Origin: Thauera sp. 28
Lineage (GTDB): Bacteria; Pseudomonadota; Gammaproteobacteria; Burkholderiales; Rhodocyclaceae
Assembly: GCF_000310145.2 (NCBI RefSeq)
Contig: NZ_AMXA01000007.1
Span: 62,001-126,000, forward strand
Reading direction: 5' to 3'
DNA length: 64,000 bases
The translations under genes were made by a program, and so were the position numbers. The stretch's first letter is position 1. Each line of letters begins with the position of its first letter. The notes under the pieces were generated by a model that saw only the letters and a list, made by a program, of their open reading frames with translations, ran no database searches and was not told where the DNA came from. Shown here one piece after another: positions 3,941-19,717 of the stretch.

Positions 3941-4864
3941 ATGCACCCTTCCCTCCCCTTCATCACGGTCGCGCTGTGCACCCATAACCATGCGGACCGC
4001 CTGGAGCGCACGCTCAAGACCCTCGCCGGGCTGCATCCTACCGAGCAGCCTTGGGAAATGCTCGTCATCGACAATGGCAGCACGGACGGCACACCGTTGC
4101 TTCTCGCAGACAACGGCTGGCATCCTGCCGGTATCGCTGTGCGGGTCGTGCGCGAAGAGCGCCTCGGGCTCTCGAACGCGCGCAATCGGGCGCTGCGCGA
4201 GGCACGCGGTGAATACCTGCTGTTCATGGACGACGACGAAACCCCCGACCCGGACTGGCTGTGCGCCTACGAACGCGCGATGCAGGAGTGGCGGCCGGAT
4301 GCACTCGGCGGCCGCATAGAGGTGTTCTTCGAGGACGGCGTGCGCCCGCCTTGGCTGCAGGACGAGTTGCTCGGCTTCCTCGGCAAGCTCGACCATGGCG
4401 CGGCGCGCTGGCTGGATGCTCCCGGCACACCGATCTTCGGCGGCAATTTCGCCTTCCGTCGCAGCGTGTTTGGCACCATCGGAGACTTTGACGCCCGTCT
4501 CGGGCGCATGGGCAAGGCAAACATCGGCGGCGAGGACACCGAGATCTACCGCCGCCTGCTGGCACACGGCTGCCGGGTGCGCTGGGTGCCGGAGGCGATC
4601 ATTCACCACCGCATCCAGACGCCCAAGCTGCGCCGCGGCTACTTCCTCGACCTGCATTTCCGCCAGGGGCGCAGCGAAGGGGCGGCCAAGCGCGGAAGCG
4701 GCCGGCGCATCCCCCCCCCTTACCTGTTCGCCCAATGGCTGCGCGCCCTCGGTCGCGCAGTCGGGCGCAGGCTGGGCTCAGGCGCTGACCAATCGCTGCG
4801 GCTCGAGATGAACGCAGCCTATTTCTGCGGCTTCCTTCTCGGCTGGATACGCGACCGCGGCTGA
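3941..4864 (+). CDS. GT2 family glycosyltransferase
   Basis: 307-residue family 2 glycosyltransferase. Motifs: ITVALCTHNHADRL at the N terminus, LVIDNGSTDGT, and FMDDDETPDPDW as the metal-binding DxD-type site; GEDTEIYRRL marks the acceptor-side segment. The C-terminal 60 residues are basic and then hydrophobic, which may give peripheral membrane contact. It starts 9 bp after the deacetylase gene. The FGGNFAFRR segment resembles the GGGNLVAR segment in the GT2 domain at 6754, so the two may be paralogues. Sugar specificity is unknown. Confidence 0.9.
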   Translation: MHPSLPFITVALCTHNHADRLERTLKTLAGLHPTEQPWEMLVIDNGSTDGTPLLLADNGWHPAGIAVRVVREERLGLSNARNRALREARGEYLLFMDDDETPDPDWLCAYERAMQEWRPDALGGRIEVFFEDGVRPPWLQDELLGFLGKLDHGAARWLDAPGTPIFGGNFAFRRSVFGTIGDFDARLGRMGKANIGGEDTEIYRRLLAHGCRVRWVPEAIIHHRIQTPKLRRGYFLDLHFRQGRSEGAAKRGSGRRIPPPYLFAQWLRALGRAVGRRLGSGADQSLRLEMNAAYFCGFLLGWIRDRG

Positions 4865-4908
4865 GTCGTCACCCCGCCCACCCCGTACACCTGATCGAAC
4901 CTGCCCCG

Positions 4909-5871
4909 ATGCCCTCACTCAGGCTTCCCCACCTGCACAAACTGCTCGACCCCGAGATCCGCGCCAAGAACGTGCAATGGCTGCGCTGGCGTGCCAGGGA
5001 GCATTACTACGCGCTCGCACACCCGGACATGCCCGATCCGGTCTTCGTAATCGGCTGCTCGCGCTCGGGCACCACCATCACCTTCGAGACGCTCGCGGCG
5101 GGCGGGCACTTCCTGCACTTCGACTATGAGTTGCCGCAGTTCTGGAACGGACTTTACGGGCCGAATAACAACGGCTGGATCTCGGAGGCGGCAGGCCCCG
5201 AGCAGGCCGACCCCGAGCACCGCCAACGTGCGCTCGCCTACTTCTACGCCCGCCTCGGTGCCGGCCCGGTGCTCGACAAGACCTGCATCAACACGCTGCG
5301 CGTGGGCTACCTGCACAAGCTCTTCCCGCAGGCAAGGTTCGTGTTCATCCACCGTGACGGGCGCGACAACATCAGCTCGATGATCGACGGCTGGCGCCTG
5401 GGCCGCAGCGACGGCGGTTTCGGCCTGGAGAAGTTCTTCGGCCCCTCACCCGTGCCTGTAGCGATCAATGATGGAGAGTTCAGCGAATGGCATTTCTTCC
5501 TCCCGCCCGGCTGGCGTGACTACAACCAGGCCAGCCTCGAGGAGGTTTGCGCATTCCAGTGGCTCAGTGCCAACCGGCTCGCCCTCGATGCGGCACGCGA
5601 CGTGCCGGCTGCGCAGTGGGTACAGGTGCGCTACGAGGATATCTTCGAGCACCCGGTCGAGATGTTCCGCTCCGTGTTCGAGCGCCTGGACCTGCCCTTC
5701 GATGCACGCATGCAAGCGCATTGCGCCAACCTCTCCGGGCGTCCGACGAGCATCGTGAAGGGTGCGCCGAAGAGGCAGAAGTGGAAGGAGAGCAACCCTC
5801 GGGCGATCGAGCGCATCCTGCCGACCATCGCTCCACTCATGTGCGAACTGGGCTATGCAATCGACGACTGA
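4909..5871 (+). CDS. Sulfotransferase family protein
   Basis: 320 residues. The PAPS 5'-phosphosulfate loop is GCSRSGTT (residues 49-56) and the 3'-phosphate-binding segment is FIHRDGRDNISSMIDG (R149 to S156), both in the usual order and spacing of the P-loop sulfotransferase family. The reaction would be transfer of sulfate from PAPS to a hydroxyl group, here probably of a glycan repeat unit. No signal peptide, so cytoplasmic. The neighbours are glycosyltransferases, which suggests the exopolysaccharide is sulfated; no PAPS-synthesis genes are in the window. The gene overlaps the next start by 17 bp. Confidence 0.85.
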   Translation: MPSLRLPHLHKLLDPEIRAKNVQWLRWRAREHYYALAHPDMPDPVFVIGCSRSGTTITFETLAAGGHFLHFDYELPQFWNGLYGPNNNGWISEAAGPEQADPEHRQRALAYFYARLGAGPVLDKTCINTLRVGYLHKLFPQARFVFIHRDGRDNISSMIDGWRLGRSDGGFGLEKFFGPSPVPVAINDGEFSEWHFFLPPGWRDYNQASLEEVCAFQWLSANRLALDAARDVPAAQWVQVRYEDIFEHPVEMFRSVFERLDLPFDARMQAHCANLSGRPTSIVKGAPKRQKWKESNPRAIERILPTIAPLMCELGYAIDD

Positions 5872-6757
5872 ACCGACGGTCAGCGTCGTCATCCCTGCCT
5901 TCAATGCGGCGTGGTGCATCCGGCACGCGATCGACAGCGTGCTGGCGCAGAGCTTCCCGGACTTCGAGTTGATCGTCGTCGACGACGGCAGCACCGACGA
6001 CACGGCCGAGATCCTGCGCAGCTACGGCGATGCGCTGCTTGTCGTATCACAGCCGAACGGCGGCATGAGCAGTGCGCGCAATGCCGGCATCCGCAACGCA
6101 CGCGGACGCTACCTCGCCTTCCTTGATGCGGACGATCGCTGGTTGCCAGCCAAGCTCGAGCGCCAGGTCGCGCTACTGGACAATCGGCCCGAACTTGCGT
6201 TCTGCGCAGCCACCGCAACCCTCGAGGCTCCCGACGGTCAGGTGGTCGGCGCCTGGGCCTGCCAGGGCAATGGCACCGCCTCGGTCACCGAGGTCTTCGC
6301 CGCCCACGCGCTGATTGCTGGCGGCGCCTCATCGGTGCTGGCGCGGCGCGAACTCGTACAAGCGCTCGGCGGCTTCGACGAGACCCTGTTCGGTGCGGAG
6401 GATACAGACCTGTGGATCCGCCTCGCTGCACGTGGCGGCTTTGCATGCATTCCCGAAGCCCTGGTGGTGGTCCTCAAGCGTCCGGGCAGCGTCAGCCGGA
6501 ACCGCAAGCGAATGCGCGCGGGCGCACTGGCGATGACGCGCAAGAACCGCCACCTCCTGCCGGCCAACAAGCGCGGCGCCTACTGGCGCGCACTCTACGC
6601 AGGCACCTTGTGCGACTACGCCAAGTGGGCGTGCCGCGAGGGAGATCGTGGCGCAGCACTCGCCGATCTTGCACGCGCCCTCATGCTCGCCCCCCTGAGC
6701 CATGGGAGACTGGTGGCGGGGATCACCCTGGCTTTGATCACCGGAGCGAGACTGTGA
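5855..6757 (+). CDS. GT2 family glycosyltransferase
   Basis: 300-residue family 2 glycosyltransferase with VSVVIPAFNAAW, LIVVDDGSTDDT and FLDADDRWLP motifs and a GAEDTDLWIRLA acceptor-side segment. The ATG at 5855 inside the sulfotransferase gene is taken as the start because the protein aligns with the family from there; upstream in-frame residues are a basic, non-family sequence. A hydrophobic C-terminal stretch may be a membrane contact. The stop overlaps the GTG start of the following gene (GTGA). It is similar in layout to the GT2 encoded from 1162. Confidence 0.9.
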   Translation: MQSTTEPTVSVVIPAFNAAWCIRHAIDSVLAQSFPDFELIVVDDGSTDDTAEILRSYGDALLVVSQPNGGMSSARNAGIRNARGRYLAFLDADDRWLPAKLERQVALLDNRPELAFCAATATLEAPDGQVVGAWACQGNGTASVTEVFAAHALIAGGASSVLARRELVQALGGFDETLFGAEDTDLWIRLAARGGFACIPEALVVVLKRPGSVSRNRKRMRAGALAMTRKNRHLLPANKRGAYWRALYAGTLCDYAKWACREGDRGAALADLARALMLAPLSHGRLVAGITLALITGARL

Positions 6758-9700
6758 AACCTGAACGCCCCGCGCCGAACACCCTCACCATCCTGATCTG
6801 CACCCACAACAGGGTGGATCTGCTCTCTCGCGTCATCGCATCGCTGGATGGCGCAACACAGCCCGCGGGATGGCGGATCCGCCTGTTCGTGGTCGCCAAC
6901 GCCTGCTCTGATGGCACGCACGCGTTTCTGACGGCTCGCGGCGCAAACCCCGACGGCGGCCTGCCGCTCACCTGGGTCGCCGAGCCTACGCCGGGCAAGT
7001 CTCACGCGCTGAACCGTGCGCTCCCTCTGCTCGAGGACGAACTGGTGGCCTTTGTGGACGACGACCACCGGGTGGACGCGAGCTATCTGGAGGCAATCAC
7101 CGGAGCGGCAAGCAGTTGGCCGGAGGCCGACCTCTTCTGTGGCCGTATCGTCCCCGACTGGGACGGCACCGAGCCCGCCTGGGTGCACGACGAGGGCCCC
7201 TACCGAATCTACCCGTTACCCGTACCGCGCTACGACCAGGGCCAGGATGACTTCGCAATCGATGTCGACGGCCCCATCCCCGGCGGAGGCAATCTGGTCG
7301 CACGCCTGGCGGTGATCGCACGGACTGGCCCGTTCGCAATCGAACTCGGCCCTACTGGGCACGACCTTGGCGGCTCCGAGGACGCAGACTGGATCCTGCG
7401 CGCACTGCGCAACGGTACGCGTCTGCATTACGTGCCCGCAATCCTCCAGTACCACTATGTGGACAGCGAGCGGCTGACCCTCTCGTATGTGGCGCGCAAG
7501 GGGTTCCAGCGTTCGCAGTCGGTCACGCGCGTCCGTGCGGAATTCGAACGCGTACCGCGCTACATGTGGCGCAAGGCCGCAGGCTACGCCGCCGGTCTCG
7601 CGCTGTCGTGGCGTCTGCAGGCACGCCGCTTCTACTTGGTCCGGCTGTCGTCCGCGCTGGGCGAGATCTCGGGCATCCGCGACCAGCACCGGCGGCGGCG
7701 CAAACGGGCGGCACTGCCGATGCTCGGTGCCGAATACCTGTCGGCCAGCCTGTTGGCGATCGCCGCCACCGCGCTCGCCCTGGCGGCGATGCTGGGGCGG
7801 GACTGGCTGGGCGAGGCTGCATTCGCATCCGGACTCGTTGGCGCCTTCACTGCAGCGCTGCTCGTGGTCAAGTCGGTGCGCGATTTCTCGCGCACCGGCC
7901 CCGGGCTGCGCGACGAGATCGTCAACCGCTACCGCAACTACATCGTCTTCGCGCTCGCACGCCTGGCATTTGCGTCACTTTGTGTTGCGGCATTCTGGGC
8001 TTTCCCCGGCGCGGCGCTCTGGATCAGCGCGGCCGAAGCCATGGGGCGCGAACCGCCACTGTGGTCGACCGCAGCCGGGGGCGCGCTGACCCTTGCGCTC
8101 GCGACAGTGTATGCCGGCTGCCGGGCACTTTCGCTGAACCCAGGGCTGGTCATCGCATCCTGGCAGTACCGCACCGTGCGCATCCATCGCCTGTGGCGAG
8201 CACTGTCCCGCCGCGGCCTGGACCTGATCGCCCGCATCGTGCTGTTTTCCGGCATCGCCTTGGTAAGCGCGCTTGCCGTGCTGCGCTACCACCAAGACAG
8301 TGCGGCCGACGCCGGCACCCTGCTGCTCGCCGCATGCGGCTACATCGCGCTTCTGCTCTATGCGATCTGGGAGCCGGACGGCGCTCACGCACGCACGACG
8401 GCGTCAAGCGGGCGACGAAACGTGGTGATGATCGGCAGCGACACCCTGCGTGCAGACCGCATCGGCGCACAGCGCGACGGAGTCTCGATCACGCCCCACA
8501 TCGACGCGCTCGCCGCACAGGGGGCGCTGTTCAGCGCCTGTTACGTTCCCTGCGCCCGCACCGCCCCCAGCCTGATCTCCCTGTTCACGGGGACCTGGCC
8601 CCACCACCATGGCGTACGCGACAACTATGTTACGGAGGCCGAGACGCGACTCAAGGACAAGACACTGCCCAACGTGTTGCGAGCCCTCGGATATCGCACC
8701 GCGGCGGTCTCGGATTGGTGCGGGGCCGACCTGGGCAAGTTCGACTTCGGCTTCGACATCACGGACCTGCCCGCCGACCAATGGAACCTGAAGTATCTGG
8801 TCCGCCAGGGTCCAAAGGACATTCGACTGTTTCTGTCACTGTTCCTGCACAACCGCCTCGGCCGTCAGTTGCTTCCCGAGATCCACTACCTTGGCGGCGT
8901 TCCCCAGACCGGCATGCTCGGCCGCCGTGCGCGCCGCACTCTGACGAGGCTTGCCAACACCAGCGAACCCTTCCTGCTCAACATCTTCTACTCCACCACC
9001 CACCCGCCGTTCGCGTCCGAGCACCCCTACTACACGCGGTTCTCCGACCCAGCCTATTCCGGCGCATCGAAATTTGCCATGGCTCGCCTGACCGAGCCGT
9101 TCGAGATCATCCGCCGTCAGGGCGAACCTCGTGAGGAGTTCGACCTCGACCAGATCCTCGACCTCTATGACGGTTGCGTCGCACAGTTCGACGATGAGGT
9201 CGGACGTCTGATGCGACAGATCGAGGCCAGCGGGCTCGCCGAGAACACCGTCATCGTCCTCTACAGTGACCACGGCATGGAGTTCTTCGAGCATGGCACC
9301 TGGGGACAGGGCAACTCGGCGCTCGGCGACTTCAGTGCGCGAGTACCGCTGGTCGTCGTGGACGCCAAGCAAGCGCGTGGGCAGCGCATCGACCAGGTCG
9401 TACGCAGCGTCGACATCATGCCAACCCTGCTCGAACTGCTCGACGCGCCCTCCGTTGGCTGCGATGGCGTCTCGCTCGTGCCGACCATCGCCGACCCGAC
9501 CACTGACCTGCACCTGAAGGCGTTCAACGAGACCGGGATATGGATTGCGCCTGTACCTGGGCTCCCCGAAGGCCACCTCAGCTACCCCAACCTGCTCGAA
9601 CTACTCGACATTCCCGACCCCGACTCGGGTAGCCTCGCCATCCGGGCGCACTACCAGCAAGAGGTCGTGGTGGCAAAGGACCGCATGGTACGCGACGGTC

Positions 9701-9909
9701 CCTGGAAACTCGTCTACCAGCCGCTGGAGTCCGGTCGCAAGCTCAGCCTCTACAACGTCGCAGCCGACCCGGGATGCACGAGTGACGTGGCGGCGAAGTA
9801 TCCCGAGGAAGTCGTGCGGCTTTGGGGCGAGTTGCACGCCTGGATGGCAAACGACCCGGCCCTTCGGGAAGATCGACGCCTGGAGTTGGATCCTGCCGAA
9901 GCGGGCTGA
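6754..9909 (+). CDS. GT2 glycosyltransferase - membrane - sulfatase/phosphoglycerol-transferase-fold fusion
   Basis: A 1051-residue protein with three parts. Residues about 8-330 are a GT2 domain (ILICTHNRVDLL, FVDDDHRVD, GGSEDADWILRAL). Residues about 320-540 hold several hydrophobic segments. Residues about 555-1040 are an alkaline-phosphatase-superfamily domain: MIGSDTLRADRIG near 560, then ARTAPSLISLFTG and YSDHGMEFFEHG. In true sulfatases the nucleophile sits in C/S-x-P-x-R; here the aligned residues are T603-A-P-S-L, so the formylglycine cysteine is replaced by Thr, as in lipoteichoic-acid-synthase-like and phosphoethanolamine-transferase-like enzymes. Start is GTG 6754, overlapping the previous stop; the longer frame from 6412 is not family-like. 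It may add a sugar and then a phospho-substituent. Confidence 0.8.
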   Translation: MKPERPAPNTLTILICTHNRVDLLSRVIASLDGATQPAGWRIRLFVVANACSDGTHAFLTARGANPDGGLPLTWVAEPTPGKSHALNRALPLLEDELVAFVDDDHRVDASYLEAITGAASSWPEADLFCGRIVPDWDGTEPAWVHDEGPYRIYPLPVPRYDQGQDDFAIDVDGPIPGGGNLVARLAVIARTGPFAIELGPTGHDLGGSEDADWILRALRNGTRLHYVPAILQYHYVDSERLTLSYVARKGFQRSQSVTRVRAEFERVPRYMWRKAAGYAAGLALSWRLQARRFYLVRLSSALGEISGIRDQHRRRRKRAALPMLGAEYLSASLLAIAATALALAAMLGRDWLGEAAFASGLVGAFTAALLVVKSVRDFSRTGPGLRDEIVNRYRNYIVFALARLAFASLCVAAFWAFPGAALWISAAEAMGREPPLWSTAAGGALTLALATVYAGCRALSLNPGLVIASWQYRTVRIHRLWRALSRRGLDLIARIVLFSGIALVSALAVLRYHQDSAADAGTLLLAACGYIALLLYAIWEPDGAHARTTASSGRRNVVMIGSDTLRADRIGAQRDGVSITPHIDALAAQGALFSACYVPCARTAPSLISLFTGTWPHHHGVRDNYVTEAETRLKDKTLPNVLRALGYRTAAVSDWCGADLGKFDFGFDITDLPADQWNLKYLVRQGPKDIRLFLSLFLHNRLGRQLLPEIHYLGGVPQTGMLGRRARRTLTRLANTSEPFLLNIFYSTTHPPFASEHPYYTRFSDPAYSGASKFAMARLTEPFEIIRRQGEPREEFDLDQILDLYDGCVAQFDDEVGRLMRQIEASGLAENTVIVLYSDHGMEFFEHGTWGQGNSALGDFSARVPLVVVDAKQARGQRIDQVVRSVDIMPTLLELLDAPSVGCDGVSLVPTIADPTTDLHLKAFNETGIWIAPVPGLPEGHLSYPNLLELLDIPDPDSGSLAIRAHYQQEVVVAKDRMVRDGPWKLVYQPLESGRKLSLYNVAADPGCTSDVAAKYPEEVVRLWGELHAWMANDPALREDRRLELDPAEAG

Positions 9910-9956: not shown

Positions 9957-11594
9957 TCAGCGACCAAGGTGCTCAAGCACGAAACCGCCCGCCCGCAAAC
10001 GCTCGGTAGCGCCCAGCAAGGGCGCGACCTGATCGCGCCTCAGATTGAATACACGCCCTGCCTCCACTGCTTCAGGCAACGCGGATTCTCCTGCAAAGCC
10101 AGTGCAGAAGCGGACTGGTTCATCAGGGCGGTCAAGCTTGTGCTCGCAGGCGCCCGGATTGGTGGGATCCCCTACAAGCGCAAGGCGTGCATCACTCGAG
10201 TAGGAGGGTCCGAAGAAGCGAATCAGGTTGAGGTACTCCTGCTGTACCGTCACGCCGCGCAGCAGAACCGTCGGCACGGCCTGCGCATCGAAAACGTGCG
10301 CGCTGATCACTGCCATCGCCTGCGGCTGGTAATCGATGCGCTCGTACTTCGGCACGAACATGGCAGCACCGAGTCGCTGGATACGCCACACACCCGGCTG
10401 CTCGACCAGCCAACCGTAGACGGGCGGCCGCACGATCAAGAGCAGCACCAAGGTGGCACCTAGCATCCCGCGCCGCATCGGCGTGCGCCAGCCTCCAAAC
10501 ACCCAGCACCATCCAAGCGCAGACAGCAGAACCAGAGGTGGCACCAGACCGATCAACATTCGCGTCTGCACCTCGGAGCCTGCCGCGACCAACCACCAGG
10601 AAGGAAGCCCTGCAAGCAGGAGCCATAGCCCGCCAAAGCGCACCAGGGGCGATCTGACGAACAAGGCAAGGGCGAGCGCAGCGCCAAGCCATAGCATGCC
10701 ACCGACCACGAATACGAGATTCAACGGATGCACTCCGCTCCTGGCCCTGTTCACCAGGCTGCCCGCAAACTCGAGGTAGTGGCGCGGGTCCGCCAGAGGA
10801 TGGAAAAACCAGGCGTAGAGTGCATAACCGAGCAGCGCCACCGCGCCCGCGATGACGTAGCAGCGTAGCAGCGTCTGGCGTGCCGGCTGCGCCGGTGAGA
10901 ACGCCAGGAAGGCGAGCATGAATGCCAACCATGCCCAGACGCTCTCCACCCGGACCATGTAACCCAGCACGGCGAGCACGCCCGAGACCGCCGCCAGCAT
11001 CACGGCGCCAGTGCTTACGGCCGCCAGCAGCGCCCACACCGCCGCCCCCCCCAGGCCGAAGCTGATCACCTCGCTGACCAGATTGCCACTCAGGTAGGCG
11101 TAGATATCCGAAAGAACGAAGAGGAGCGCAGAGAAGCACAGGCCAAGCCCGAGCCGTTCATCCGGGTCGATCAGTCTCCCCGCAAGCAGGGCAACCCGGC
11201 ACCACGCGAACAAGCCAAGCGGCATCGCGATGACAAACAGCCAATGCGCGGCGAGAACCGCGTTCGCCGTGCTCCCGAGCGCATCGACAAGCACGCCCAG
11301 GATCGCGATGTGGCCCAGACGACTGGCCCGCCAGTAGGCCTCCGAATAGCCCTCATCCTCTGGCCAGTTTCCCGCGATCTGGGCGACGATCTGCCTGGAA
11401 CTCGCAGCAATGTCATGAACATACGGCGTCTCGGCAAAACGCTTGGCTTGGTATAGATAGATCGGTGAGTCCCAGTGCACATCCCCGAGCGGAGTGCGGG
11501 CGAACGCGACGATCACGACTGCGCCCACGAGCGCCAGCCAGAGCAGGCGCTTGAAAAGATGGCCACCGGCTCCATCCGCAAGATGCGATCGCAC
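9957..11594 (-). CDS. Polytopic membrane protein, probable GT-C-type glycosyltransferase
   Basis: About 545 residues, almost wholly hydrophobic, with roughly 10-12 predicted membrane segments. After the first segment there is an acidic loop, GDVHWDSPIYLYQAKRF (D38, D42), placed like the catalytic loop of GT-C transferases that use polyprenyl-phosphate sugars. A soluble C-terminal portion of about 120 residues follows the last helix. No family is recognised by name. Its position as the last gene after GtrB-like, GtrA and amino-sugar genes suggests it is the periplasmic transferase of a Gtr-type system. Start is uncertain: GTG at 11594 fits 35 bp after the preceding stop; the frame is open to 11690. 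Confidence 0.65.
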   Translation of the reverse strand: MRSHLADGAGGHLFKRLLWLALVGAVVIVAFARTPLGDVHWDSPIYLYQAKRFAETPYVHDIAASSRQIVAQIAGNWPEDEGYSEAYWRASRLGHIAILGVLVDALGSTANAVLAAHWLFVIAMPLGLFAWCRVALLAGRLIDPDERLGLGLCFSALLFVLSDIYAYLSGNLVSEVISFGLGGAAVWALLAAVSTGAVMLAAVSGVLAVLGYMVRVESVWAWLAFMLAFLAFSPAQPARQTLLRCYVIAGAVALLGYALYAWFFHPLADPRHYLEFAGSLVNRARSGVHPLNLVFVVGGMLWLGAALALALFVRSPLVRFGGLWLLLAGLPSWWLVAAGSEVQTRMLIGLVPPLVLLSALGWCWVFGGWRTPMRRGMLGATLVLLLIVRPPVYGWLVEQPGVWRIQRLGAAMFVPKYERIDYQPQAMAVISAHVFDAQAVPTVLLRGVTVQQEYLNLIRFFGPSYSSDARLALVGDPTNPGACEHKLDRPDEPVRFCTGFAGESALPEAVEAGRVFNLRRDQVAPLLGATERLRAGGFVLEHLGR

Positions 11595-11629
11595 ATCCTG
11601 CGCACAGCCGGATCTCTGGGATGAGCGCT

Positions 11630-12754
11630 TCAAAGCGCGGCGAGGACCTGGTCGATGATCCCGGCCTGCTCGTCCTCCATGCCCAACCATACGGGAAGGC
11701 GGACCAGCCGCTTGGCGACATCCTCGGTCACCGCCAAAGTGCCGTGCGGTCGTCCGAAGCGGCGACCCGCCGGCGCATCATGCAGGGGGATGTAGTGGAA
11801 CACGCAGTGAATGCCCAAGCGGCGCAGGCGCTCGATGAAGGCGGTGCGTACGTCCAGGTCGGGCAGCAGCAGGTAATACATGTGGGCATTGTGTGCGCAG
11901 TGAGGAGGGACCACCGGGCGCCGGAGGCGACCCTGGCGCTCGGCTTCGGCGAAGCCATGATGGTAGGTCTCCCAAATGCCCAGCCGACGCCGGGTGATGC
12001 TGTCAGCTTCCTCCATCTGAGCCCACAGGAAGGCCGCAATCAGTTCCCCCGGGAGGTAGGATGAGCCGATGTCGACCCAGGTGTATTTGTCGACTTGGCC
12101 ACGGAAGAACTGCGAACGGTTGGTGCCTTTCTCGCGCACGATCTCGGCTCGCGCGGCGTGATGCACCGAATTGACGAGCAGCGCCCCCCCTTCCCCGGAA
12201 ATGATGTTCTTGGTCTCATGAAAGGACAGCGCCCCCATGTCGCCTATACCACCCAGCGGTCGGCCCTTGTAGCTCGCCATGACCGCCTGTGCAGCATCCT
12301 CGATCACCAGGAGCTCATGGCGGCGGGCGATATCGATGATCGCATCCATCTCGCAACCGACACCTGCGTAATGGACAGGGACTATCGCCCGCGTGCGCGC
12401 CGTGATGGCTGCCTCGATGAGTTGCTCATCGATGTTCAGGGTGTCGGCGCGAACATCGACGAAAACAGGTACGGCCCCACGCAACACGAAAGCGTTGGCC
12501 GTCGAAACGAAGGTGTAAGAGGGCATGATGACCTCATCACCAGGCTGAAGATCGGCCAGGATGGCGGCCATCTCCAGCGCTGCAGTGCATGAATGGGTCA
12601 ACAAGGCCTTGGAAGCGCCGGTGCGAGCCTCGAGCCAGCGCGAACACAGGCCGGTGAAGCGCCCATCGCCAGCGAGGTGTCCATTGGCATGTGCCTGGGC
12701 GATGTACCAGAGTTCCTTGCCCGTCATGTGGGGCTTGTTGAAGGGGATGTTCAT
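11630..12754 (-). CDS. rffA: dTDP-4-amino-4,6-dideoxygalactose transaminase (WecE/RffA-like)
   Basis: 374-residue DegT/DnrJ/EryC1 PLP-dependent sugar aminotransferase. SFHETKNIISGEGG carries the Schiff-base lysine K182, and the start IPFNKPHMTGKELWYI and HYAGVGCEMD are characteristic of the WecE/RffA/FcnA branch, which converts dTDP-4-keto-6-deoxyglucose to dTDP-4-amino-4,6-dideoxygalactose using glutamate. Length matches the family. It overlaps the GtrA gene by 4 bp and shares the run with a GNAT acetyltransferase, so the product is likely dTDP-Fuc4NAc. No rmlA/rmlB for the precursor is in the window. Confidence 0.85.
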   Translation of the reverse strand: MNIPFNKPHMTGKELWYIAQAHANGHLAGDGRFTGLCSRWLEARTGASKALLTHSCTAALEMAAILADLQPGDEVIMPSYTFVSTANAFVLRGAVPVFVDVRADTLNIDEQLIEAAITARTRAIVPVHYAGVGCEMDAIIDIARRHELLVIEDAAQAVMASYKGRPLGGIGDMGALSFHETKNIISGEGGALLVNSVHHAARAEIVREKGTNRSQFFRGQVDKYTWVDIGSSYLPGELIAAFLWAQMEEADSITRRRLGIWETYHHGFAEAERQGRLRRPVVPPHCAHNAHMYYLLLPDLDVRTAFIERLRRLGIHCVFHYIPLHDAPAGRRFGRPHGTLAVTEDVAKRLVRLPVWLGMEDEQAGIIDQVLAAL

Positions 12755-13170
12755 GGCAGTGGCCCGGTCGTTTGCGTGGAGACGGTCAGCGGTCTGAAGA
12801 CCCAGTACTTCTGCAGCAGGAACAGCAACATCGCCAACCCGAGGATGAACAGCCCCTGGACGATCTGGTGCGGATATCCGAGTACGTCCACGAATACCAG
12901 CAAACCGCCGAGATTCATCACATAGCCGAGTGCATAGGATATGGCGTAGCGAACGAAGGCAGTGCCCCGCACACCCCCATGGGCAAACGACCAGCGCTTG
13001 TTGAAGCCAAAGGTCTGCAGCACGCCCAGGACATAGAGCAGCGTCATTGCGCGCTTGGCCTCGACACCCAAGGCAGTGAGCCCAAGATATGCGAGGTAAA
13101 GAATTGCGTTGGACACCAGGCCTACCGTGGCATAACGAAGAAACTGGCGCAGTGCGACACGACCGCTCAT
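12751..13170 (-). CDS. GtrA family membrane protein (putative polyprenyl-phosphate-sugar flippase)
   Basis: 139 residues with four hydrophobic segments. RYATVGLVSNAILYLAYL at the start and the LQTFGFNKRWSF segment in the middle are the typical GtrA signature. GtrA proteins are thought to move undecaprenyl-phosphate-linked sugars across the inner membrane. The gene overlaps both neighbours by 4 bp (ATGA junctions), so it is translationally coupled to the acetyltransferase before it and the aminotransferase after it. Confidence 0.88.
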   Translation of the reverse strand: MSGRVALRQFLRYATVGLVSNAILYLAYLGLTALGVEAKRAMTLLYVLGVLQTFGFNKRWSFAHGGVRGTAFVRYAISYALGYVMNLGGLLVFVDVLGYPHQIVQGLFILGLAMLLFLLQKYWVFRPLTVSTQTTGPLP

Positions 13171-13970
13171 GCGCTGCGCACCCAGTGGAAGGTCATCGAT
13201 GGCGCGGGGAACACGAAACCTAACCGTGCGTATAGGTTCAGCACACGGTGGTTCCGCGCGACGAAGCTAGTACGCACCCGACGCGCCCCATCCTTGAACG
13301 CCTGATGCATCATCTGCCGCCAGGCTCGCAGCCCATAGCCCATGCCTTGCCGTGCTGGCGAGACAGCATTCAAGTGCCAGTAGCAGGTACCGTCGACGAG
13401 CATCTCGACGACGAAGAACGCCACCAGGTCCCCGGCCTCTCTAAGCGCATACAGGCGCTGCGAAGGATGCTCCAGGCAGTTGCGCACCCAGTTCTGGTAA
13501 CGCAGGTCACCCAGACCGGACGGCAGTCTGGGATCCATGTGGAAACGCTCGCAGCCAAAGGCGGTGCCAGCCAGTTCGACGATCGCCGGAAGATCAGGTG
13601 CCGATGCAAGGACAAGTTCCAGCCCCCTCTCATCGCCTGTCTGTGTCCATTCCGAGCAGGCGAATTCGGGCTGGTAGACCATTTCGATGAAGCGAAAACC
13701 GATCTCCTCGAGCAGCATGGACTCGCGCAAGCGATCGTGCGCCAGGCGGCAACTTGCCAACTCAACGCCACCCGCCTCGCATGCGACGACGAAAGGTGCG
13801 AGATCGTCCGCTCTTGCACCGAGGTCGGCCTCGATCCGCGAAATCTGCACGACAGGATGACCAAGTACCGCCGTATCCCACGGCGCCTCCGCCCAGACGA
13901 GGCGAAGCGGGCCGGCAGTGATCTCCCCATGTAGAAGAGCAGATCTGCGCGACTCACTCACGTTGTCCAC
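13167..13970 (-). CDS. GNAT N-acetyltransferase, probable dTDP-fucosamine acetyltransferase (WecD/RffC-like)
   Basis: 267 residues. The C-terminal half is a GNAT domain: YWHLNAVSPARQGMGYGLR contains the acetyl-CoA loop (QGMGYG) and NLYARLGF is the closing helix. The N-terminal half (LRLVWAEAPWDTAVLG, LASCRLAHDR) resembles WecD/RffC, which acetylates the 4-amino group of dTDP-Fuc4N. WecD of enterobacteria is shorter (about 224 residues). Start is GTG 13970 with GGAGGG five bases upstream; it overlaps the previous gene by 17 bp. Its place between GtrB-like and GtrA genes and one gene from the RffA-like aminotransferase supports the role. Confidence 0.75.
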   Translation of the reverse strand: MDNVSESRRSALLHGEITAGPLRLVWAEAPWDTAVLGHPVVQISRIEADLGARADDLAPFVVACEAGGVELASCRLAHDRLRESMLLEEIGFRFIEMVYQPEFACSEWTQTGDERGLELVLASAPDLPAIVELAGTAFGCERFHMDPRLPSGLGDLRYQNWVRNCLEHPSQRLYALREAGDLVAFFVVEMLVDGTCYWHLNAVSPARQGMGYGLRAWRQMMHQAFKDGARRVRTSFVARNHRVLNLYARLGFVFPAPSMTFHWVRSA

Positions 13971-14922
13971 AGCCGCCCTCCGTATCGGCAGGCATGCGCG
14001 TCGTCGACATCAGCGCGTAGGGCGGGCGCTCCATCGAACGAAAATGCATTCTCGCCAGATATTCGCCAAAGATCCCGAGCGCAAAGAGCTGCACCCCCGA
14101 GAATATGGCGATGATCGATGCGAGGAAAGGGAAGCCTGGCACCGCGCTGCCATCGACCAGATAACGCAGCAACACATAGAAGAGCACGAGAAAGCCCAAG
14201 GTGCCGAAGACAATTCCCAGCACGCTTGCGATCTGAAGCGGCAACACCGAAAAGCCCGTCATCATGTTGAGTGCATGATTGAAGAGCTTCCTCAGCGTAT
14301 AGCCCGAGTCACCGATGGCCCGCTCATCCTGCCGAACCTGTACGGCAGCGAATCGCGTGGTACCCCAGGTCAACAACACGTCGATATTGACCGATGGGCT
14401 TCGATAGGCGGCGAACGCCTCGCGCAGACGAGTCCGAAAAACCCGAAACGCACTCACCTTGCTGGCCGACTCCACCCCCATCGCCCCCTGCAGCGCAAGC
14501 TTGGTGATCCGGGAAGCCTGGTCGCGCAGAAAACCGTGCGTCTCGGCCCGAGGCGCACCGTACACGACGTCATGGCCCTCATCCAGCTTGGCAAGTAAGC
14601 GCGGAATCTCCTCAGGGGGGTTTTGCAGATCGTCATCAAGAGTGACGATGCACTCGCCGCGTGCGGCCCGGATACCACATAACAGGGCGTTGTGCTGGCC
14701 GTAGTTGCGCGCAAGGCGCAAACCCAGCACCCTGGCGTCCGCGGCGGCAAGCGCCTCAATGACAGCCCAGGAATCGTCGCCACCACAATCCTCAACGAAG
14801 AGTATCTCGAAGGTCTCTCCCAGCTCTTCGAGAACAACCAGCAGGCGTCGATGAAGGTGCGGCAGCGTCTCCTGTGAGCGATAGACCGGAACGACCACCG
14901 AGATTCGAATCGGAACGCTCAT
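13954..14922 (-). CDS. GtrB/DPM1-like GT2 glycosyltransferase with C-terminal membrane segments
   Basis: 322 residues. Residues 5-230 are a GT2 domain (ISVVVPVYRSQETL, FVEDCGGDDS, VTLDDDLQNPPEEI), and LRLARNYGQHNAL is typical of dolichol/undecaprenyl-phosphate sugar transferases such as GtrB and ArnC. Two membrane segments follow at about 235-300, and the tail FGEYLARMHF is also usual in this group. The enzyme should load a sugar from a nucleotide donor onto undecaprenyl phosphate at the cytoplasmic face. Context (aminotransferase, acetyltransferase, GtrA) points to a Fuc4NAc-like sugar, which is inference. Confidence 0.85.
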   Translation of the reverse strand: MSVPIRISVVVPVYRSQETLPHLHRRLLVVLEELGETFEILFVEDCGGDDSWAVIEALAAADARVLGLRLARNYGQHNALLCGIRAARGECIVTLDDDLQNPPEEIPRLLAKLDEGHDVVYGAPRAETHGFLRDQASRITKLALQGAMGVESASKVSAFRVFRTRLREAFAAYRSPSVNIDVLLTWGTTRFAAVQVRQDERAIGDSGYTLRKLFNHALNMMTGFSVLPLQIASVLGIVFGTLGFLVLFYVLLRYLVDGSAVPGFPFLASIIAIFSGVQLFALGIFGEYLARMHFRSMERPPYALMSTTRMPADTEGGCGQRE

Positions 14923-14977: not shown

Positions 14978-15835
14978 CTAGTTGCGAAACCCTTCGCGCC
15001 AACGCTCCTCGACCTCATCGGGCGGACAAAATCGGCAGTTCCTCGATTGCCCCGACGAGGCTGGGGACGCCTCGCTCGGCGCATTCTCCTCGGCCACCTC
15101 GCTGTCACCCGCCTCCTTGCGCTCCGTTGCGGCAGACTCGGCCTGACTGGTGTCAGCGCGAGTCGCTTCGGGCGGTGCATCTCGACCCGCCCCCCGACCC
15201 GTGGTCGCCGCTCTGGCAGGCGTGGGCAAAGGCTCCTTGCCGCCGAGATCGAAATACAGCTTCTTGAGCTCGGCTGAGTTTGGGAGGTGTCTGAGCCCCT
15301 CTTCTGCAACAGTGAGCGCAGTAGCTTGTTGTCCCTTGCTGCGAAGTTCGGATATCAACGCCAGGTAGGCCGGCTGATAGTGAGGATTGAGCCGGATCGC
15401 GTCGGAAAAAAGCGCCGTCGCCTGCGCAGCCTGCCCCAGTAGCAGGTGAACCCGGCCAAGCTCGAGATTGAGTTGCGGGCGCATCCAGAAATCGGGTTTC
15501 GCAGCCTTGAGCACATAGGAGAACTCCTTCACGGCCAGCGAACGCTGATAGTCCTGATCCCGCTTCGTCGACGCTTGGGCCGCACGGAGAAGAAAGACCC
15601 TCCCATAGCAGTAATGGTGCATGTGCACCCAGTTGTCGGCGCCGAACTGAGCAAGGTAGCGCTGCCCCTCCGCGCTGCGATCATCGTTGCGGAGCTTGAC
15701 TGCACACACTTGCGGCAACTGTGCTTGCTCCGCCGGCGTTCCGCCGGGGTTCCACTGCGCCATCGCTGGCGAAAGCAGGACGGGCACGAGCCCCACACCA
15801 AGAAAACCAATCAAGTTCCTGATCATGACCCTCAT
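14978..15835 (-). CDS. Secreted TPR protein with charged linker and Cys-containing tail
   Basis: About 285 residues, family not recognised. A signal peptide is clear (RNLIGFLGVGLVPVLLSPAMA, cleavage before QWNPGG). Residues about 85-190 contain TPR-like helical pairs (AKPDFWMRPQLNLELGRVHL; LNPHYQPAYLALISELRSKG). Residues about 195-260 are a low-complexity Ala/Thr/Glu/Ser linker, followed by a short tail with CRFCPPDEVEERW. The periplasmic TPR domain may scaffold assembly proteins. It starts 5 bases downstream of the GT4 stop (ATG 15835; GTG 15838 and ATG 15826 are alternatives). Confidence 0.75.
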   Translation of the reverse strand: MRVMIRNLIGFLGVGLVPVLLSPAMAQWNPGGTPAEQAQLPQVCAVKLRNDDRSAEGQRYLAQFGADNWVHMHHYCYGRVFLLRAAQASTKRDQDYQRSLAVKEFSYVLKAAKPDFWMRPQLNLELGRVHLLLGQAAQATALFSDAIRLNPHYQPAYLALISELRSKGQQATALTVAEEGLRHLPNSAELKKLYFDLGGKEPLPTPARAATTGRGAGRDAPPEATRADTSQAESAATERKEAGDSEVAEENAPSEASPASSGQSRNCRFCPPDEVEERWREGFRN

Positions 15836-15840
15836 CACCC

Positions 15841-16989
15841 TCAGCTGCGCAAGTTCAAGGCGCTGGTCCGCTGAGCCACCGCAGTCCAGCTCAGCATAGC
15901 GTGCGCGCGCTCCATCGCGGCCGCGCTCATCGTGTCGCGGAATCCGCTGTCCCCCAGCAAGCGGCAGATCGCCTGCTGCAACTCGTCAAGGTTGCTCGTC
16001 TCAACCCTCAGCCCCGTCACGCCGTCGAGCACGGCTGAACCCGTTCCACCCGCGCGGCCGGCAATCGCGGCCTTTCCGCACGCCGCCGCTTCAATATAAA
16101 CAATTCCGAAGCCTTCGGTATCGCCTTCGATATCCCGATTGGCGAGGACGAAAAGGTCGCAGGCGTTGTACCAGCGCGGCAGATCGTCCATGGGCACATG
16201 ACCGAGCAGGTGCACGCGCCCGCCCACACCGCACTCGTCAACCAGGCCGGCTAGATAGTCGCGATCCTCGCCGATGCCGATGACGGCGTAGTGCACGTCC
16301 ACCCCGGCCTCGAGTACAGCGGGAAGGCAGCGGATCACAGTGTCGAAGCCCTTGCGCCGGCTCAAGCGGCCCACCGACAGGATGAGTCTCACCCCATCGG
16401 CCAGCCCCAGGCTGTCGCGCAGATCCTGAAAAGGCAGCCCGGGTCGGAAGCGTTCGGTATCGACACCGGGATGAATCATCTCGATGCGTTCGGGCGCGAC
16501 CCCCATCTCCACCAGGGTGTCGTGGGTGAAGTCGCTGTTGGCGATCACCTTGTCCGCATGGCGCAGCGCAAAGCGCATGGCCCTGTACTTGTTGCCCCGC
16601 CCCCAGCCGGTAAGCTCCTCGCCATGTGCGTAGATCGCCACTGGCCGGCGGGTTAGGCGTGCGACCAGCCACGCCACCAGGCCCTCGGGCAATGCTCGGC
16701 CAGCATGGATGGCGTCGAAACGGTGGGTCAATGCCAGCCATAGCGAGGTAAAGAAGAAGCGCAGGTACATCAGCAGCGACTCCGGCTTCAGCCAGGGTAC
16801 GCGCTTGAGCGACAGCCGGTGAATGGAGTTCGGGTGATCGCGGTCGTACTCCTCCGCGCCCGGCACATCCGCGGTGACGATGTGGATGTCCTTGCCGCCG
16901 AGGCGGCGATAGACCTCGTCGAACCATACGGCCGTGCCTCCCTTGGTCGGCAGAAAGAGTTCGGTCAGGACCAGATAGCGTTTTTGCAT
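15841..16989 (-). CDS. GT4 family glycosyltransferase
   Basis: 382-residue GT-B fold enzyme. The N-terminal domain opens YLVLTELFLPTKGG with the glycine-rich acceptor loop; the C-terminal domain has LILSVGRLSRRKGFD, and EGFGIVYIEAAACG is the GT4 E-x7-E nucleotide-sugar site. No signal peptide or membrane segment. It should transfer a hexose or similar sugar from a nucleotide donor with retention; specificity cannot be read. It follows the deacetylase-like gene by 37 bp and precedes the TPR gene by 5 bp. Confidence 0.9.
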   Translation of the reverse strand: MQKRYLVLTELFLPTKGGTAVWFDEVYRRLGGKDIHIVTADVPGAEEYDRDHPNSIHRLSLKRVPWLKPESLLMYLRFFFTSLWLALTHRFDAIHAGRALPEGLVAWLVARLTRRPVAIYAHGEELTGWGRGNKYRAMRFALRHADKVIANSDFTHDTLVEMGVAPERIEMIHPGVDTERFRPGLPFQDLRDSLGLADGVRLILSVGRLSRRKGFDTVIRCLPAVLEAGVDVHYAVIGIGEDRDYLAGLVDECGVGGRVHLLGHVPMDDLPRWYNACDLFVLANRDIEGDTEGFGIVYIEAAACGKAAIAGRAGGTGSAVLDGVTGLRVETSNLDELQQAICRLLGDSGFRDTMSAAAMERAHAMLSWTAVAQRTSALNLRS

Positions 16990-17026
16990 GATGGTTTCCA
17001 GTGCGGCGGGGCGGATGCTAACACCC

Positions 17027-18259
17027 TCAGTGCCGACCCGCTGCGGACGGAGTCACGGCGGCCAGCAGTCGCACGGCCATCGGCAACACGAAGTAGAGCC
17101 CGCACAACTTGAGCGGACGCGACAGGCCTGCCTCGGCAAGCAAACGGCGCAGGAATGTCACGCTGCGTGCACGCATGCTGCGCTGCCACAGCGCATGCTG
17201 CCGATCGGTATAGGCGTCGGCCAGCCGCTCCGTGCTGATGAAGCACACGTCGGGGTGACGCTCGACGACGCCAGCAAGTGCTCGCTCCAGTTCGGCCAGC
17301 GCGGTGTCGCCATGGTCAGCGTCGATGAAGCTCTCCCGATGCGTCTCGAGCAGGGTGGGTCGTCCCAGGGCTGTGCGCCGCGCCACAGCTTCCCACACCT
17401 GCTCCGCGCGGTGGCCGAGGATCGGCTCGAAGTAGGCATCTCGCACAAGGTAGCGCACACCGCTCTGCCCCGACTCTCCGTTGACGATACGTCGCGCGGA
17501 TGCCGCGAGCGTGCCATCCGCGCCACGCGCCTGGTACTGACGCCCGCATGTGACGACACAACGTACCCCACTCTGCACCCAGGCACGCTCGACCGCGTCG
17601 TCCCACACAAAGGTATTCGGCACGGCAACCGGGGGACAAATGCCGAACAGGGTCAGAAAGACCTCCGCTTCGTCCATGACCGCACGCCGGACCTCTGCGT
17701 CCGGCAAGGGGCGGCTCGGAAGCGTTCCGGCGTCCACCCAGCGACTCTGCAGCGCGGACGGCAAGGCCTCGCTGCGTGCTTCGGGGTCCGCCAACCATGC
17801 GCGCAGCACGCCGTCCTGACGGGCACGCACAAGCAGCGACTCAGGCCAGCAGTGCTCAAGACCATGGCGCTGAAGTGCGAAGACCCCCATTTCGCACCCC
17901 TGCCGCATGGCCCCCACGATCGGCGCATAGCGTGCCTCGCCCAGGCCGCTACGGTGATAGTGTCCGCAGTTGTCGGCGAGAATGGCCGCGCCATCGGGCT
18001 TTCCCAGCACGACACCGAGCGTCATCACCGCAGGCCGATGCTCCCGGTCGCGCACTCGCGCAAGTATTGCTGCGATGCGCTGCAACGCTTGCGCATCCGC
18101 CTCTGGCCCCGGCCCCCAGTCGTCGCTCTCGACGATCACTACCGGCCGCAGCAATGTGGGCTCGCGCCACAGTCGCAGCAGCAGGTCGCGGTTCGCGAAA
18201 AAAAACAACACCCATGCTGCAAGCAGAGAGAAACCGGCAATCAGGAGAAAAGCGTACAT
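17027..18259 (-). CDS. Membrane-anchored polysaccharide-deacetylase-like protein of unknown function
   Basis: 410 residues. An N-terminal membrane anchor (residues about 3-22) is followed by a predicted (beta/alpha)-barrel-like region. VVIVESDDWGPGPEAD (D46, D47) looks like the first metal motif of NodB or GH57-type barrels, but the canonical HxxxH motif is not evident; later conserved-looking segments are PNTFVWDDAVERAW and LETHRESFID. A hydrophobic C-terminal segment (CGLYFVLPMAVRLLAAV) may be a second anchor. It lies between the O-acetylation pair and a GT4 gene, so action on a nascent or lipid-linked glycan is plausible. Enzyme activity is not established. Confidence 0.65.
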   Translation of the reverse strand: MYAFLLIAGFSLLAAWVLFFFANRDLLLRLWREPTLLRPVVIVESDDWGPGPEADAQALQRIAAILARVRDREHRPAVMTLGVVLGKPDGAAILADNCGHYHRSGLGEARYAPIVGAMRQGCEMGVFALQRHGLEHCWPESLLVRARQDGVLRAWLADPEARSEALPSALQSRWVDAGTLPSRPLPDAEVRRAVMDEAEVFLTLFGICPPVAVPNTFVWDDAVERAWVQSGVRCVVTCGRQYQARGADGTLAASARRIVNGESGQSGVRYLVRDAYFEPILGHRAEQVWEAVARRTALGRPTLLETHRESFIDADHGDTALAELERALAGVVERHPDVCFISTERLADAYTDRQHALWQRSMRARSVTFLRRLLAEAGLSRPLKLCGLYFVLPMAVRLLAAVTPSAAGRH

Positions 18260-18280
18260 TTGTCCGGCAAGTCAGAAACA

Positions 18281-19717
18281 CTAGAAATCAAAATAGATGA
18301 ACTTCTGCGTCGGCCCGCCGAACGTCACCAGCGCAATGACAAGCGATGCGTATGCCGTACCGCGCAGCAGAAACGGTACCCGCCACCACCAGTCAATCCC
18401 TCGGCGCCGGCAGGCATCGACGATCCGGGGCTCGAGCAGAACGAGGACGACCGTCGACAGGACGCCCAGCGCCTGATAGAGACGTACAGGCGCAAGCACG
18501 ACCGGGTCCGCCAACCCCATCATCGCCACACAGATCTGCCATGCATCGGCAAAGGTCGGCGCACGAAAGAACACCCAGGTGAAATGTACGGTGACGAACA
18601 TGACCGGCCAACCCATGAGAGAGACCAGGCGGTCAAGCCTGCCCCCCTCGCGGACGTCCAACAGCCGCAGAGCATTGTTCAGCAGGCGATTGAGCACCAA
18701 CAGAGCACCATGTAGGAACCCCCAGAACACGAAGGTCCAGTTTGCGCCGTGCCACAGACCGCCCAGCAACATCGTCAGCATGAGGTTGCGATACGTATCG
18801 AAGCGCCCGCCCCGGTTGCCGCCAAGCGAGACATAGAGGTAATCGCGTAGCCAGCGGGACAAGGTGATGTGCCACCGGCGCCAGAACTCGGACGGGTTGC
18901 GGCTGATGTAGGGGAACTGGAAGTTCAGCGGCAAGACGACCCCGAACATGCGCGCAAGCCCAAGCGCCATCTCACTGTAGCCCGAGAAGTCCAGGTAGAT
19001 CATCATCCCGAAGGCAAGCGTGGCCAGCCAAGCCCGCATCAGGTCCAGACGCTCTGGATGGGCATAGAGGTCATCGACAACCGGCCCCAGGTTGTCAGCA
19101 AAAAGCGCCTTCTTGATCAGGCCACCGACAAATATGAAGGCCCCTATCCTGAGGTTGTCCCAAGCGATCGGCTTGAGGGTCTGCAACTGCTCGACCAACT
19201 CATGAACGTGCAGGATGGGACCGGCAATGAGTTGCGGGAAGAACGTGACGTACAGACACCAGTCTCGATAGCCGATCTCTTTCGTGCAGTCACCACGATA
19301 GACGTCGATCATTGCACTGAGCATCTGGAACGTATAGAAGCTGATTCCCAGTGGCAGCACCCAGTCGATCCAGCCCGGCCGTGCAACGACCACCTCGCCA
19401 CCTGCGGCGCTGGCCACCCACAAGGCGGACTCGATGATCAGCCCAAGATACTTGAAGCCCGCGAGCACCCCGAGATCAGCAACGATCACGACCGTGAGCA
19501 ACGCACGGGATCGCGTCTTCAGCATGGCCTTGTAGGCATACCAGTTGGCCGTGACGGAAAGACCGATCAGCAACAGGTAGATCGGCTTCCAGCTCGCGTA
19601 GAACAGAATGCTGGCCGCCAGCAGCACGCCCGCCCGCTGCCCCGGCGTACGCGCACCGGCGTACACCGCCAGCACCGCGATGAAGAAGAGCATGAAGCTC
19701 GCGCTACTGAAAATCAT
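18281..19717 (-). CDS. MBOAT family O-acyltransferase (AlgI-like)
   Basis: 478 residues, polytopic. LGGLWHGANWTFVFWG contains the invariant MBOAT histidine H323, and FWRRWHITLSRWLRDYLY (H283) is the second signature; FKYLGLI and GISFYTFQMLSAMIDVYRG are typical of the AlgI/DltB group. It should pass acetyl groups across the inner membrane for O-acetylation of the exopolysaccharide. It overlaps the SGNH-domain gene by 4 bp, the same pairing as AlgI with AlgJ/AlgX in alginate systems. Confidence 0.92.
   Translation of the reverse strand: MIFSSASFMLFFIAVLAVYAGARTPGQRAGVLLAASILFYASWKPIYLLLIGLSVTANWYAYKAMLKTRSRALLTVVIVADLGVLAGFKYLGLIIESALWVASAAGGEVVVARPGWIDWVLPLGISFYTFQMLSAMIDVYRGDCTKEIGYRDWCLYVTFFPQLIAGPILHVHELVEQLQTLKPIAWDNLRIGAFIFVGGLIKKALFADNLGPVVDDLYAHPERLDLMRAWLATLAFGMMIYLDFSGYSEMALGLARMFGVVLPLNFQFPYISRNPSEFWRRWHITLSRWLRDYLYVSLGGNRGGRFDTYRNLMLTMLLGGLWHGANWTFVFWGFLHGALLVLNRLLNNALRLLDVREGGRLDRLVSLMGWPVMFVTVHFTWVFFRAPTFADAWQICVAMMGLADPVVLAPVRLYQALGVLSTVVLVLLEPRIVDACRRRGIDWWWRVPFLLRGTAYASLVIALVTFGGPTQKFIYFDF

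Follow-up and report, generated by a model that had tools for sequence, protein, structure and literature searches.

Why would genes for making and N-acetylating an amino sugar lie in one tightly packed run with genes for charging a lipid carrier, and on what would the finished sugar be displayed? The question is raised by five open reading frames (ORFs) on the minus strand at 9957-14922 of a 64,000-nucleotide stretch of Thauera sp. 28 DNA (contig NZ_AMXA01000007.1, positions 62,001 to 126,000), here called the window, whose numbering is used throughout. Here we present the case that these genes probably encode a three-component polyprenyl-phosphate system with its own sugar synthesis, most plausibly one supplying undecaprenyl-phosphate-linked 4-acetamido-4,6-dideoxygalactose (Und-P-Fuc4NAc) to the exopolysaccharide (EPS) of an XrtA-type locus in the same window.

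From its upstream end, the run encodes a GtrB/ArnC-type polyprenyl-phosphate glycosyltransferase of family GT2 (13954-14922, 322 aa), a WecD-like GNAT protein (13167-13970, 267 aa from a GTG start), a GtrA-type flippase (12751-13170, 139 aa), the aminotransferase WecE (11630-12754, 374 aa) and a polytopic protein, the proposed GT-C transferase (9957-11594, 545 aa from a GTG, with the frame open upstream to an ATG at 11690). Successive genes overlap by 17, 4 and 4 bp, a gap of 35 bp precedes the last one, and the five together form the tail of a ten-gene close-packed minus-strand run beginning at 20823. A first-pass annotation had noticed five minus-strand genes overlapping or nearly touching here and had read them as a Gtr-type three-component system; the ORF calls confirm the layout, and the Und-P GT2 and GtrA of such a system are present, although the logic of the run is equally Arn-like.

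In the proposed pathway, RmlA and RmlB, encoded elsewhere, would provide dTDP-4-keto-6-deoxyglucose, from which WecE would make dTDP-Fuc4N (the free amino sugar), to be N-acetylated by the WecD-like GNAT. The GtrB/ArnC-type enzyme would load the sugar of dTDP-Fuc4NAc on undecaprenyl phosphate (Und-P), GtrA would flip the product, and in the periplasm the GT-C-like 9957-11594 protein would pass the sugar to the exopolysaccharide of the XrtA locus or to its lipid-linked unit. The steps as far as dTDP-Fuc4NAc would follow from family identity, with some reserve as to the GNAT; loading on Und-P is suggested by the GT2 family together with a coupled change of GtrB and acyl enzyme described below, and flipping by the family of GtrA. 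The transfer and its acceptor are proposed from gene position, protein topology and the EPS composition of a relative, and we infer that dTDP-Fuc4NAc is the donor for GtrB and that the sugar ends as a side group.

The aminotransferase is securely assigned as WecE, the predicted dTDP-4-keto-6-deoxyglucose 4-aminotransferase giving dTDP-Fuc4N. Besides its DegT domain (PF01041; window proteins were scanned against Pfam at E 0.001, with an NCBIfam scan alongside), it scores 605.5 bits against the NCBIfam equivalog NF008687, 230 bits over the cut-off of 375, and 481.3 bits against the solved WecE 4piw over residues 3-360 of 374. It scores, in other words, as the WecE/RffA-like enzyme first read here; the making of a different dTDP-sugar would have spoken against that reading. 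Genes for RmlA, RmlB and RmlC lie together at another place in the genome, and a second RmlB gene lies beside that for RmlD, so that the RmlA and RmlB product dTDP-4-keto-6-deoxyglucose should be available.

For the GNAT (PF00583), the single sequence matches solved WecD at E 0.002, and a profile built on 23 family members found at WecE loci has WecD (2fs5) as its top match in the PDB, at E 1.1e-10 over positions 8-219 of 231; the runner-up, at E 9.4e-7, spans the GNAT half only. The WecD model NF008212 also recognizes eight of these 23 proteins at E 1e-6. By its profile the family is therefore related to solved WecD over nearly the full length, and more closely than to other GNATs, and we propose that the 13167-13970 product is a dTDP-Fuc4N N-acetyltransferase. 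The initial WecD/RffC-like label survives in that WecD is the best match of the 23-member profile, but the kinship is remote and the equivalog cut-off is missed.

The GT2 protein (PF00535) has matches to ArnC, GtrB and PgfS across nearly its whole length, among them 187.7 bits to ArnC 9bhc and 140.1 bits to Synechocystis GtrB 5ekp in the PDB, and it is the sole match of the GtrB/ArnC kind in the genome (E 1e-12). The cut-off of the ArnC equivalog NF007986 is missed (197.7 bits against 529). We propose that it is an Und-P-Fuc4NAc synthase. Its earlier description as a GtrB-like undecaprenyl-phosphate GT2 was right as to a membrane GT2 of the polyprenyl-phosphate kind, although the scores lie nearer ArnC than Synechocystis GtrB. 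The 12751-13170 product, recognized from the outset as a GtrA flippase, has no NCBIfam match; it reaches 56 bits against PF04138 (cut-off 26.1), is the only match to that family in the genome, and its assignment to GtrA is secure at the level of family. All eight Thauera genomes that carry WecE have a GtrA gene no more than 15 kb away from it.

Comparison within the genus provides the strongest link between the acylating enzyme and the lipid carrier. Among 28 same-genus relatives, WecE is found above cut-off in seven and the last gene in three. Two of these (G020 and G019) have all five genes in the same order, and a third (G026) has at least four of the five, in order, its GNAT being cut at a contig end; all five are present in T. 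aminoaromatica S2. The five-gene order that the first reading had suggested searching for is thus found in other Thauera. Three further genomes (G003, G006 and G013) keep GtrB, GtrA and WecE, but at the position of the GNAT they encode a hexapeptide acetyltransferase and WbqC, and WecE is followed downstream by a PMT_2 protein (called by Pfam for G003 and G006). The hexapeptide enzyme of G003 scores 130.5 bits for the NeuD/PglB/VioB subfamily, below the cut-off of 160.8, and those of G006 and G013 were called by a one-sequence profile; WbqC was called by Pfam in G003 and G006. This appears to be a non-homologous replacement of the acylating enzyme in three Thauera. GtrB proteins from loci of the GNAT type share 86% identity with one another and those of the hexapeptide/WbqC type 93%, against 47% between the two types. 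The corresponding figures, in the same order, are 93, 95 and 87% for WecE, 75, 86 and 66% for GtrA, 77, 82 and 77% for the neighbouring GT4, and 61, 72 and 59% for the 17027-18259 product. GtrB therefore changes with the N-acyl enzyme far beyond its neighbours while WecE stays, and this is the strongest argument that the sugar loaded by GtrB is the substrate of the acyl enzyme.

The association extends well beyond Thauera. WecE was found above cut-off in 50 of 399 genomes of the order and 22 of 369 of the class, the own genome being included in both. Leaving that genome aside, 31 of 49 order loci have a GtrB-like gene in the neighbourhood of WecE (28 on the same strand), accompanied by a GNAT in 17, by WbqC or a hexapeptide enzyme in 12 and by neither in two; for the class the figure is 11 of 21, all on the same strand, with a GNAT in two, WbqC or a hexapeptide enzyme in five and neither in four. 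Loci cut by contig ends were retained in these counts. Chance would place GtrB near WecE in an estimated 1-2% of cases (51 GtrB/ArnC-like matches over 22 selected genomes with WecE, at ~3.5 Mb each). The GtrB line of 240 bits was chosen after the scores were seen, and falls in a gap from 39 to 288 bits in the order draw and from 22 to 252 in the class draw; three of the ten GtrB HMM seeds (L037-L039) and two of the seven GNAT seeds (L037, L038) come from loci also counted in the order draw. Of the 23 loci with both GtrB and GNAT, own included, 22 have the two genes side by side on the same strand, at -47 to +37 bp measured between domain ends and not between start and stop codons. Sixteen other DegT genes had been intended as a control: 11 have a GtrB-like gene of at least 240 bits nearby and the remaining five have none, and since most are presumed to be ArnB beside ArnC, the set serves as a positive control for ArnC and not as a negative one. 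A chance grouping of the cassette genes is rejected in view of the order kept in Thauera and of the adjacency and linkage beyond the genus. One locus from another family, L086:3622-8886 (+), carries a cassette whose GtrB is 76% identical to that of the window; a second GtrB gene there overlaps an ORF whose product has an LPG_synthase_TM domain.

A tree of 81 GtrB-type proteins (50 WecE-linked rows and 20 unlinked, with the 'arn' label assigned by position) places all 50 WecE-linked rows outside the ArnC-type group. These rows do not form one clade, lying mainly in groups of 13 and 38 rows that are separated by 11 unlinked rows, themselves a clade (support 86/69); one of the 20 unlinked rows (L147) falls within the 13-row group, and some branches are long. 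Labels for the type of acyl enzyme are clustered on this tree: the GNAT label requires 6 changes against 20.9 when shuffled and the WbqC/hexapeptide label 4 against 18.0, with none of 500 shuffles as low in either case, a clustering to which near-copies contribute.

The last protein is likely a GT-C transferase that would move the sugar from Und-P to the acceptor. It has no match in Pfam or NCBIfam at E 0.001 or among PDB sequences at E 10, and raising the Pfam limit to 10 gave only DUF4538 (E 0.017) and a microprotein model (0.2), both meaningless. The concern raised at first, that it might belong to a non-transferase family, thus found no match at a meaningful score. Its hydropathy profile has a first transmembrane (TM) segment at 13-31, a 64-residue loop, eleven more TM peaks, then a thirteenth and weaker one, and a C-terminal part; the motif HWDxPIY in the loop is invariant in six of six aligned rows. 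Of 20 polytopic protein sets, the family profile best matches WecE-linked PMT_2 proteins (E 7e-5, probability 63; E 2e-4 and 47 in an earlier run), the next-best set following at E 0.013; the PMT_2 set itself matches an ArnT set at E 3e-12. A contig scan with two peptide patterns found the gene at three loci, all in Thauera, and a profile search through the 399 genomes of the order brought in four more, all from a single other genus. Distant relatives were seen at L122:8334-10160 (-), L123, L124 and L125, those of L122 and L125 with 28-29% identity; the L122 and L123 genes sit among others that look glycan-like by eye, and no GtrB above 67 bits was found near any of the four in the stretches fetched.

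What, then, would receive the sugar? The likely source of the acceptor is the XrtA/PEP-CTERM exopolysaccharide locus at 24799-44830 on the minus strand, which encodes XrtA, a ligase-like protein, an amidotransferase, glycosyltransferases, a WecB-type epimerase, chain-length, tyrosine kinase and export proteins. The first-pass annotation had considered Fuc4NAc on an exopolysaccharide unusual, WecF being the normal route of the sugar into enterobacterial common antigen (ECA). The placement looks less odd than that, since N-acetylfucosamine is reported in the EPS of T. aminoaromatica MZ1T (PMC4784049). A metabolic model of that strain uses dTDP-D-N-acetylfucosamine as an EPS precursor (PMC11741664), and the available text of these two papers does not describe a lipid-carrier step. 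The donor could also be as proposed and the acceptor be lipopolysaccharide, lipid A, pilin or a PEP-CTERM protein. We regard this as unlikely, although GT-C enzymes serve diverse acceptors, the XrtA locus also encodes an exosortase and a putative O-glycosylation ligase, and eight WecE loci of other genera (L036-L043) have no XrtA or ligase relative in the stretch fetched, so that in those genera the module shows no tie to XrtA. The Thauera run, however, lies inside an XrtA EPS locus, close-packed with EPS-type genes, and a species carrying it has the strain with N-acetylfucosamine in its EPS (PMC4784049).

A different sugar on the same system, gluco-configured (4-amino-4,6-dideoxyglucose, Qui4N) or otherwise acylated, seems distinctly unlikely. 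The GNAT might use another acyl-CoA, being just remotely WecD-like; WecE relatives might differ in outcome at C4; and related loci use PglD/VioB-like enzymes with WbqC. Against this stand the wide margin by which the aminotransferase exceeds the WecE equivalog cut-off and its nearly complete alignment to the solved enzyme, as well as the preference of the GNAT profile for WecD over all other GNATs in the PDB sequence set. Very unlikely, finally, is an ECA-like cytoplasmic use, with a Leloir enzyme such as the GT4 at 15841-16989 taking dTDP-Fuc4NAc and GtrB and GtrA handling another sugar: Fuc4NAc does enter ECA directly through WecF, and a GT4 gene lies in the same run and a WecB-type epimerase in the locus, but WecF (PF07429) has no match in the genome at E 0.001, it is GtrB, unlike the GT4, that changes together with the N-acyl enzyme, and the GtrB-GNAT adjacency persists in distant genomes.

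WecF was likewise not found in 57 of 59 genomes with WecE, own included, and the two that have it (L082, L090) are loci without GtrB. Membership of the run in the ECA pathway was rejected for want of a WecF match in its own genome, and membership in the Arn pathway on the ArnC score and the GtrB tree. UDP-N-acetylfucosamine (UDP-FucNAc) was also considered as a source and is not favoured; this route looks unlikely in the window's own genome, where a strong CapD/WbpM match was not found (best 53.9 bits). The Pfam family for CapD/WbpM is loose, matching in all 14 control genomes and giving weak matches above its cut-off in the own genome, two of them at RmlB genes, so that only bit scores were used. 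Among the seven Thauera relatives, the matches are strong in four (353-398 bits; G006, G012, G013 and G020), partial in G026 (108 bits) and absent in G003 and G019, the G019 and G026 genomes being 77% complete.

Several observations weigh against the system proposed here. The GNAT falls well below the WecD equivalogs (30.4 bits for TIGR02382, cut-off 195.1, and 28.9 for a second model, cut-off 219). The GT-C call for the last protein rests on topology, the HWDxPIY motif and one remote profile match; its profile did not convincingly match the ArnT set (E 0.044), and no row of the family matches Pfam PMT_2 even at E 10. One Thauera genome, G012, has the other four genes and not the last. In G019, G020 and G026 a second, PMT_2-like GT-C lies just beyond the last gene, and either of the two may move the sugar there. 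Outside Thauera, just seven of 51 genomes have a GtrA gene within 15 kb of WecE (six of them within 10 kb), so that another flippase must often serve there, and no GtrB appears at 18 of 49 order and 10 of 21 class WecE loci, some of them at contig ends; the two loci of the family that come nearest outside Thauera (L036, L043) also have none, L036 ending just past the GNAT. As to the sugar, the available text of PMC4784049 does not specify the position (2 or 4) of the MZ1T N-acetylfucosamine, and T. aminoaromatica has CapD-type genes (G020; tmz1t_3801 in PMC4784049).

Two side observations concern the alternative transferases. The second GT-C (PMT_2), L030:581-2200 (-), with relatives in G020, G026, G006 and G013, lies beside or near the cassette in five other Thauera with 67-100% identity; G028 has a 35% relative, and the window's own genome has no match. 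In G012, a polytopic open frame of 633 codons at L035:65-1963 (+) faces WecE and is possibly the transferase of that genome; neither Pfam (at E 0.001) nor NCBIfam (at E 1e-30) gave a match for it.

How does the run compare with characterized systems? With Gtr three-component systems it shares a membrane GT2 of the kind that charges Und-P, a GtrA flippase, gene linkage and, as proposed here, a polytopic transferase and surface-polymer decoration; it differs in having amino-sugar synthesis and N-acylation inside, a predicted dTDP-sugar donor, a candidate transferase of no known family and, probably, an XrtA-type EPS as its acceptor. The Arn pathway (ArnA, B, C, D, E, F and T), which puts 4-amino-4-deoxy-L-arabinose (L-Ara4N) on lipid A, likewise combines a C4 aminotransferase, N-acylation ahead of the carrier, an ArnC-type Und-P transferase, a flippase and a GT-C enzyme with sugar synthesis in the operon. 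The Thauera run would instead use a dTDP-hexose and not a UDP-pentose, acetyl and not formyl, and GtrA and not ArnE/F; it has no ArnT match, and its GtrB branches apart from the ArnC-type group. The wecD-wecE-wecF genes of ECA share with it WecE and a WecD-like GNAT; WecF has no match, and the run instead encodes an Und-P transferase together with a flippase and a GT-C-like protein. Also close is EPS cluster 1 of MZ1T, which resembles the window in genus, in the order of the flanking gene types up to a GT2-sulfatase gene and in having N-acetylfucosamine in its EPS; its map legend ends at mz1t_3253, and the five genes beyond are not mentioned in the available text (PMC4784049). Related multi-component systems include the CsbB type and the GT136 pentofuranose systems (PMC11127046; Gtr systems also in PMC8035078), and GtrA-dependent action on an exopolysaccharide has already been proposed (PMC13390465, PMC7117936). 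Fuc4NAc or Fuc4N together with gtrA or gtrB was not found among the literature matches listed; prior publication remains possible, subscription journals lying mostly outside the coverage.

A broader reading is possible but doubtful, namely that the run belongs to a widespread, unnamed class of systems that carry N-acylated 4-amino-4,6-dideoxyhexoses on a lipid. WecE would supply the common precursor, an interchangeable pair, GtrB with the WecD-like GNAT or with a PglD/VioB-like acetyltransferase and WbqC, would set the N-acyl group that is loaded and displayed, and GtrB would read that group; Thauera would place the acetyl form on XrtA-type EPS, where the amine could later be freed by the polysaccharide deacetylase of the locus to give a sticky polymer (flocculation). 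Were this so, the Arn-like logic of protecting, carrying and deprotecting would have shifted from lipid A to exopolysaccharide. On the pathway proposed here, Fuc4NAc, known as a WecF-built ECA sugar, would gain a second route into surface polymers via Und-P. That GtrB and the acyl enzyme change together provides a natural experiment on N-acyl recognition by polyprenyl-phosphate transferases, and the run offers a gene-level explanation for N-acetylfucosamine in the EPS of floc-forming Thauera, which is linked to viscous bulking in sewage plants. A 2020 survey, as far as its available text goes, found Fuc4NAc only in Gammaproteobacteria (PMC7725333). Thauera is listed under Betaproteobacteria, and WecE passes its cut-off in one genome in eight of the order, as counted above; our guess is that a strict WecD threshold may explain missed cases.

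The genes around the cassette are consistent with an EPS region. Upstream lie the first five genes of the minus-strand run, close-packed at gaps of -4 to +55 bp and probably co-transcribed EPS genes (14978-20823): a gene at 19714-20823, an MBOAT gene (18281-19717), a gene at 17027-18259, the GT4 gene (15841-16989) and a TPR gene (14978-15838). Relatives of most of them occur near the cassette in other Thauera. Converging on the run from 22-9909 on the plus strand are EPS genes for an asparagine synthase, a GT2, the 2040-3125 ORF (no Pfam family), a polysaccharide deacetylase, a GT2, a sulfotransferase-like protein, a GT2 and a GT2-sulfatase fusion; in type and order, save for the extra ORF 2040-3125, they equal mz1t_3247-3253 of EPS cluster 1 in a figure legend of PMC4784049. 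The fusion, at 6412-9909 (+), is a 1165-aa ORF joining a GT2 domain with a sulfatase-superfamily domain, and both it and the sulfotransferase-like gene (4909-5871) have relatives in other Thauera loci. Three asparagine-synthase-like genes lie in the EPS region (22-1125, 20761-22677 and 31396-33324), the last being the XrtA-type amidotransferase. Further along, the minus-strand gene at 48947-50356 encodes a beta-CASP metallo-beta-lactamase nuclease-like protein that scores 287.6 bits for the type VII Cas14 model (cut-off 800) and 239 bits for aCPSF1 (cut-off 580.2), and is probably an ordinary beta-CASP RNase.

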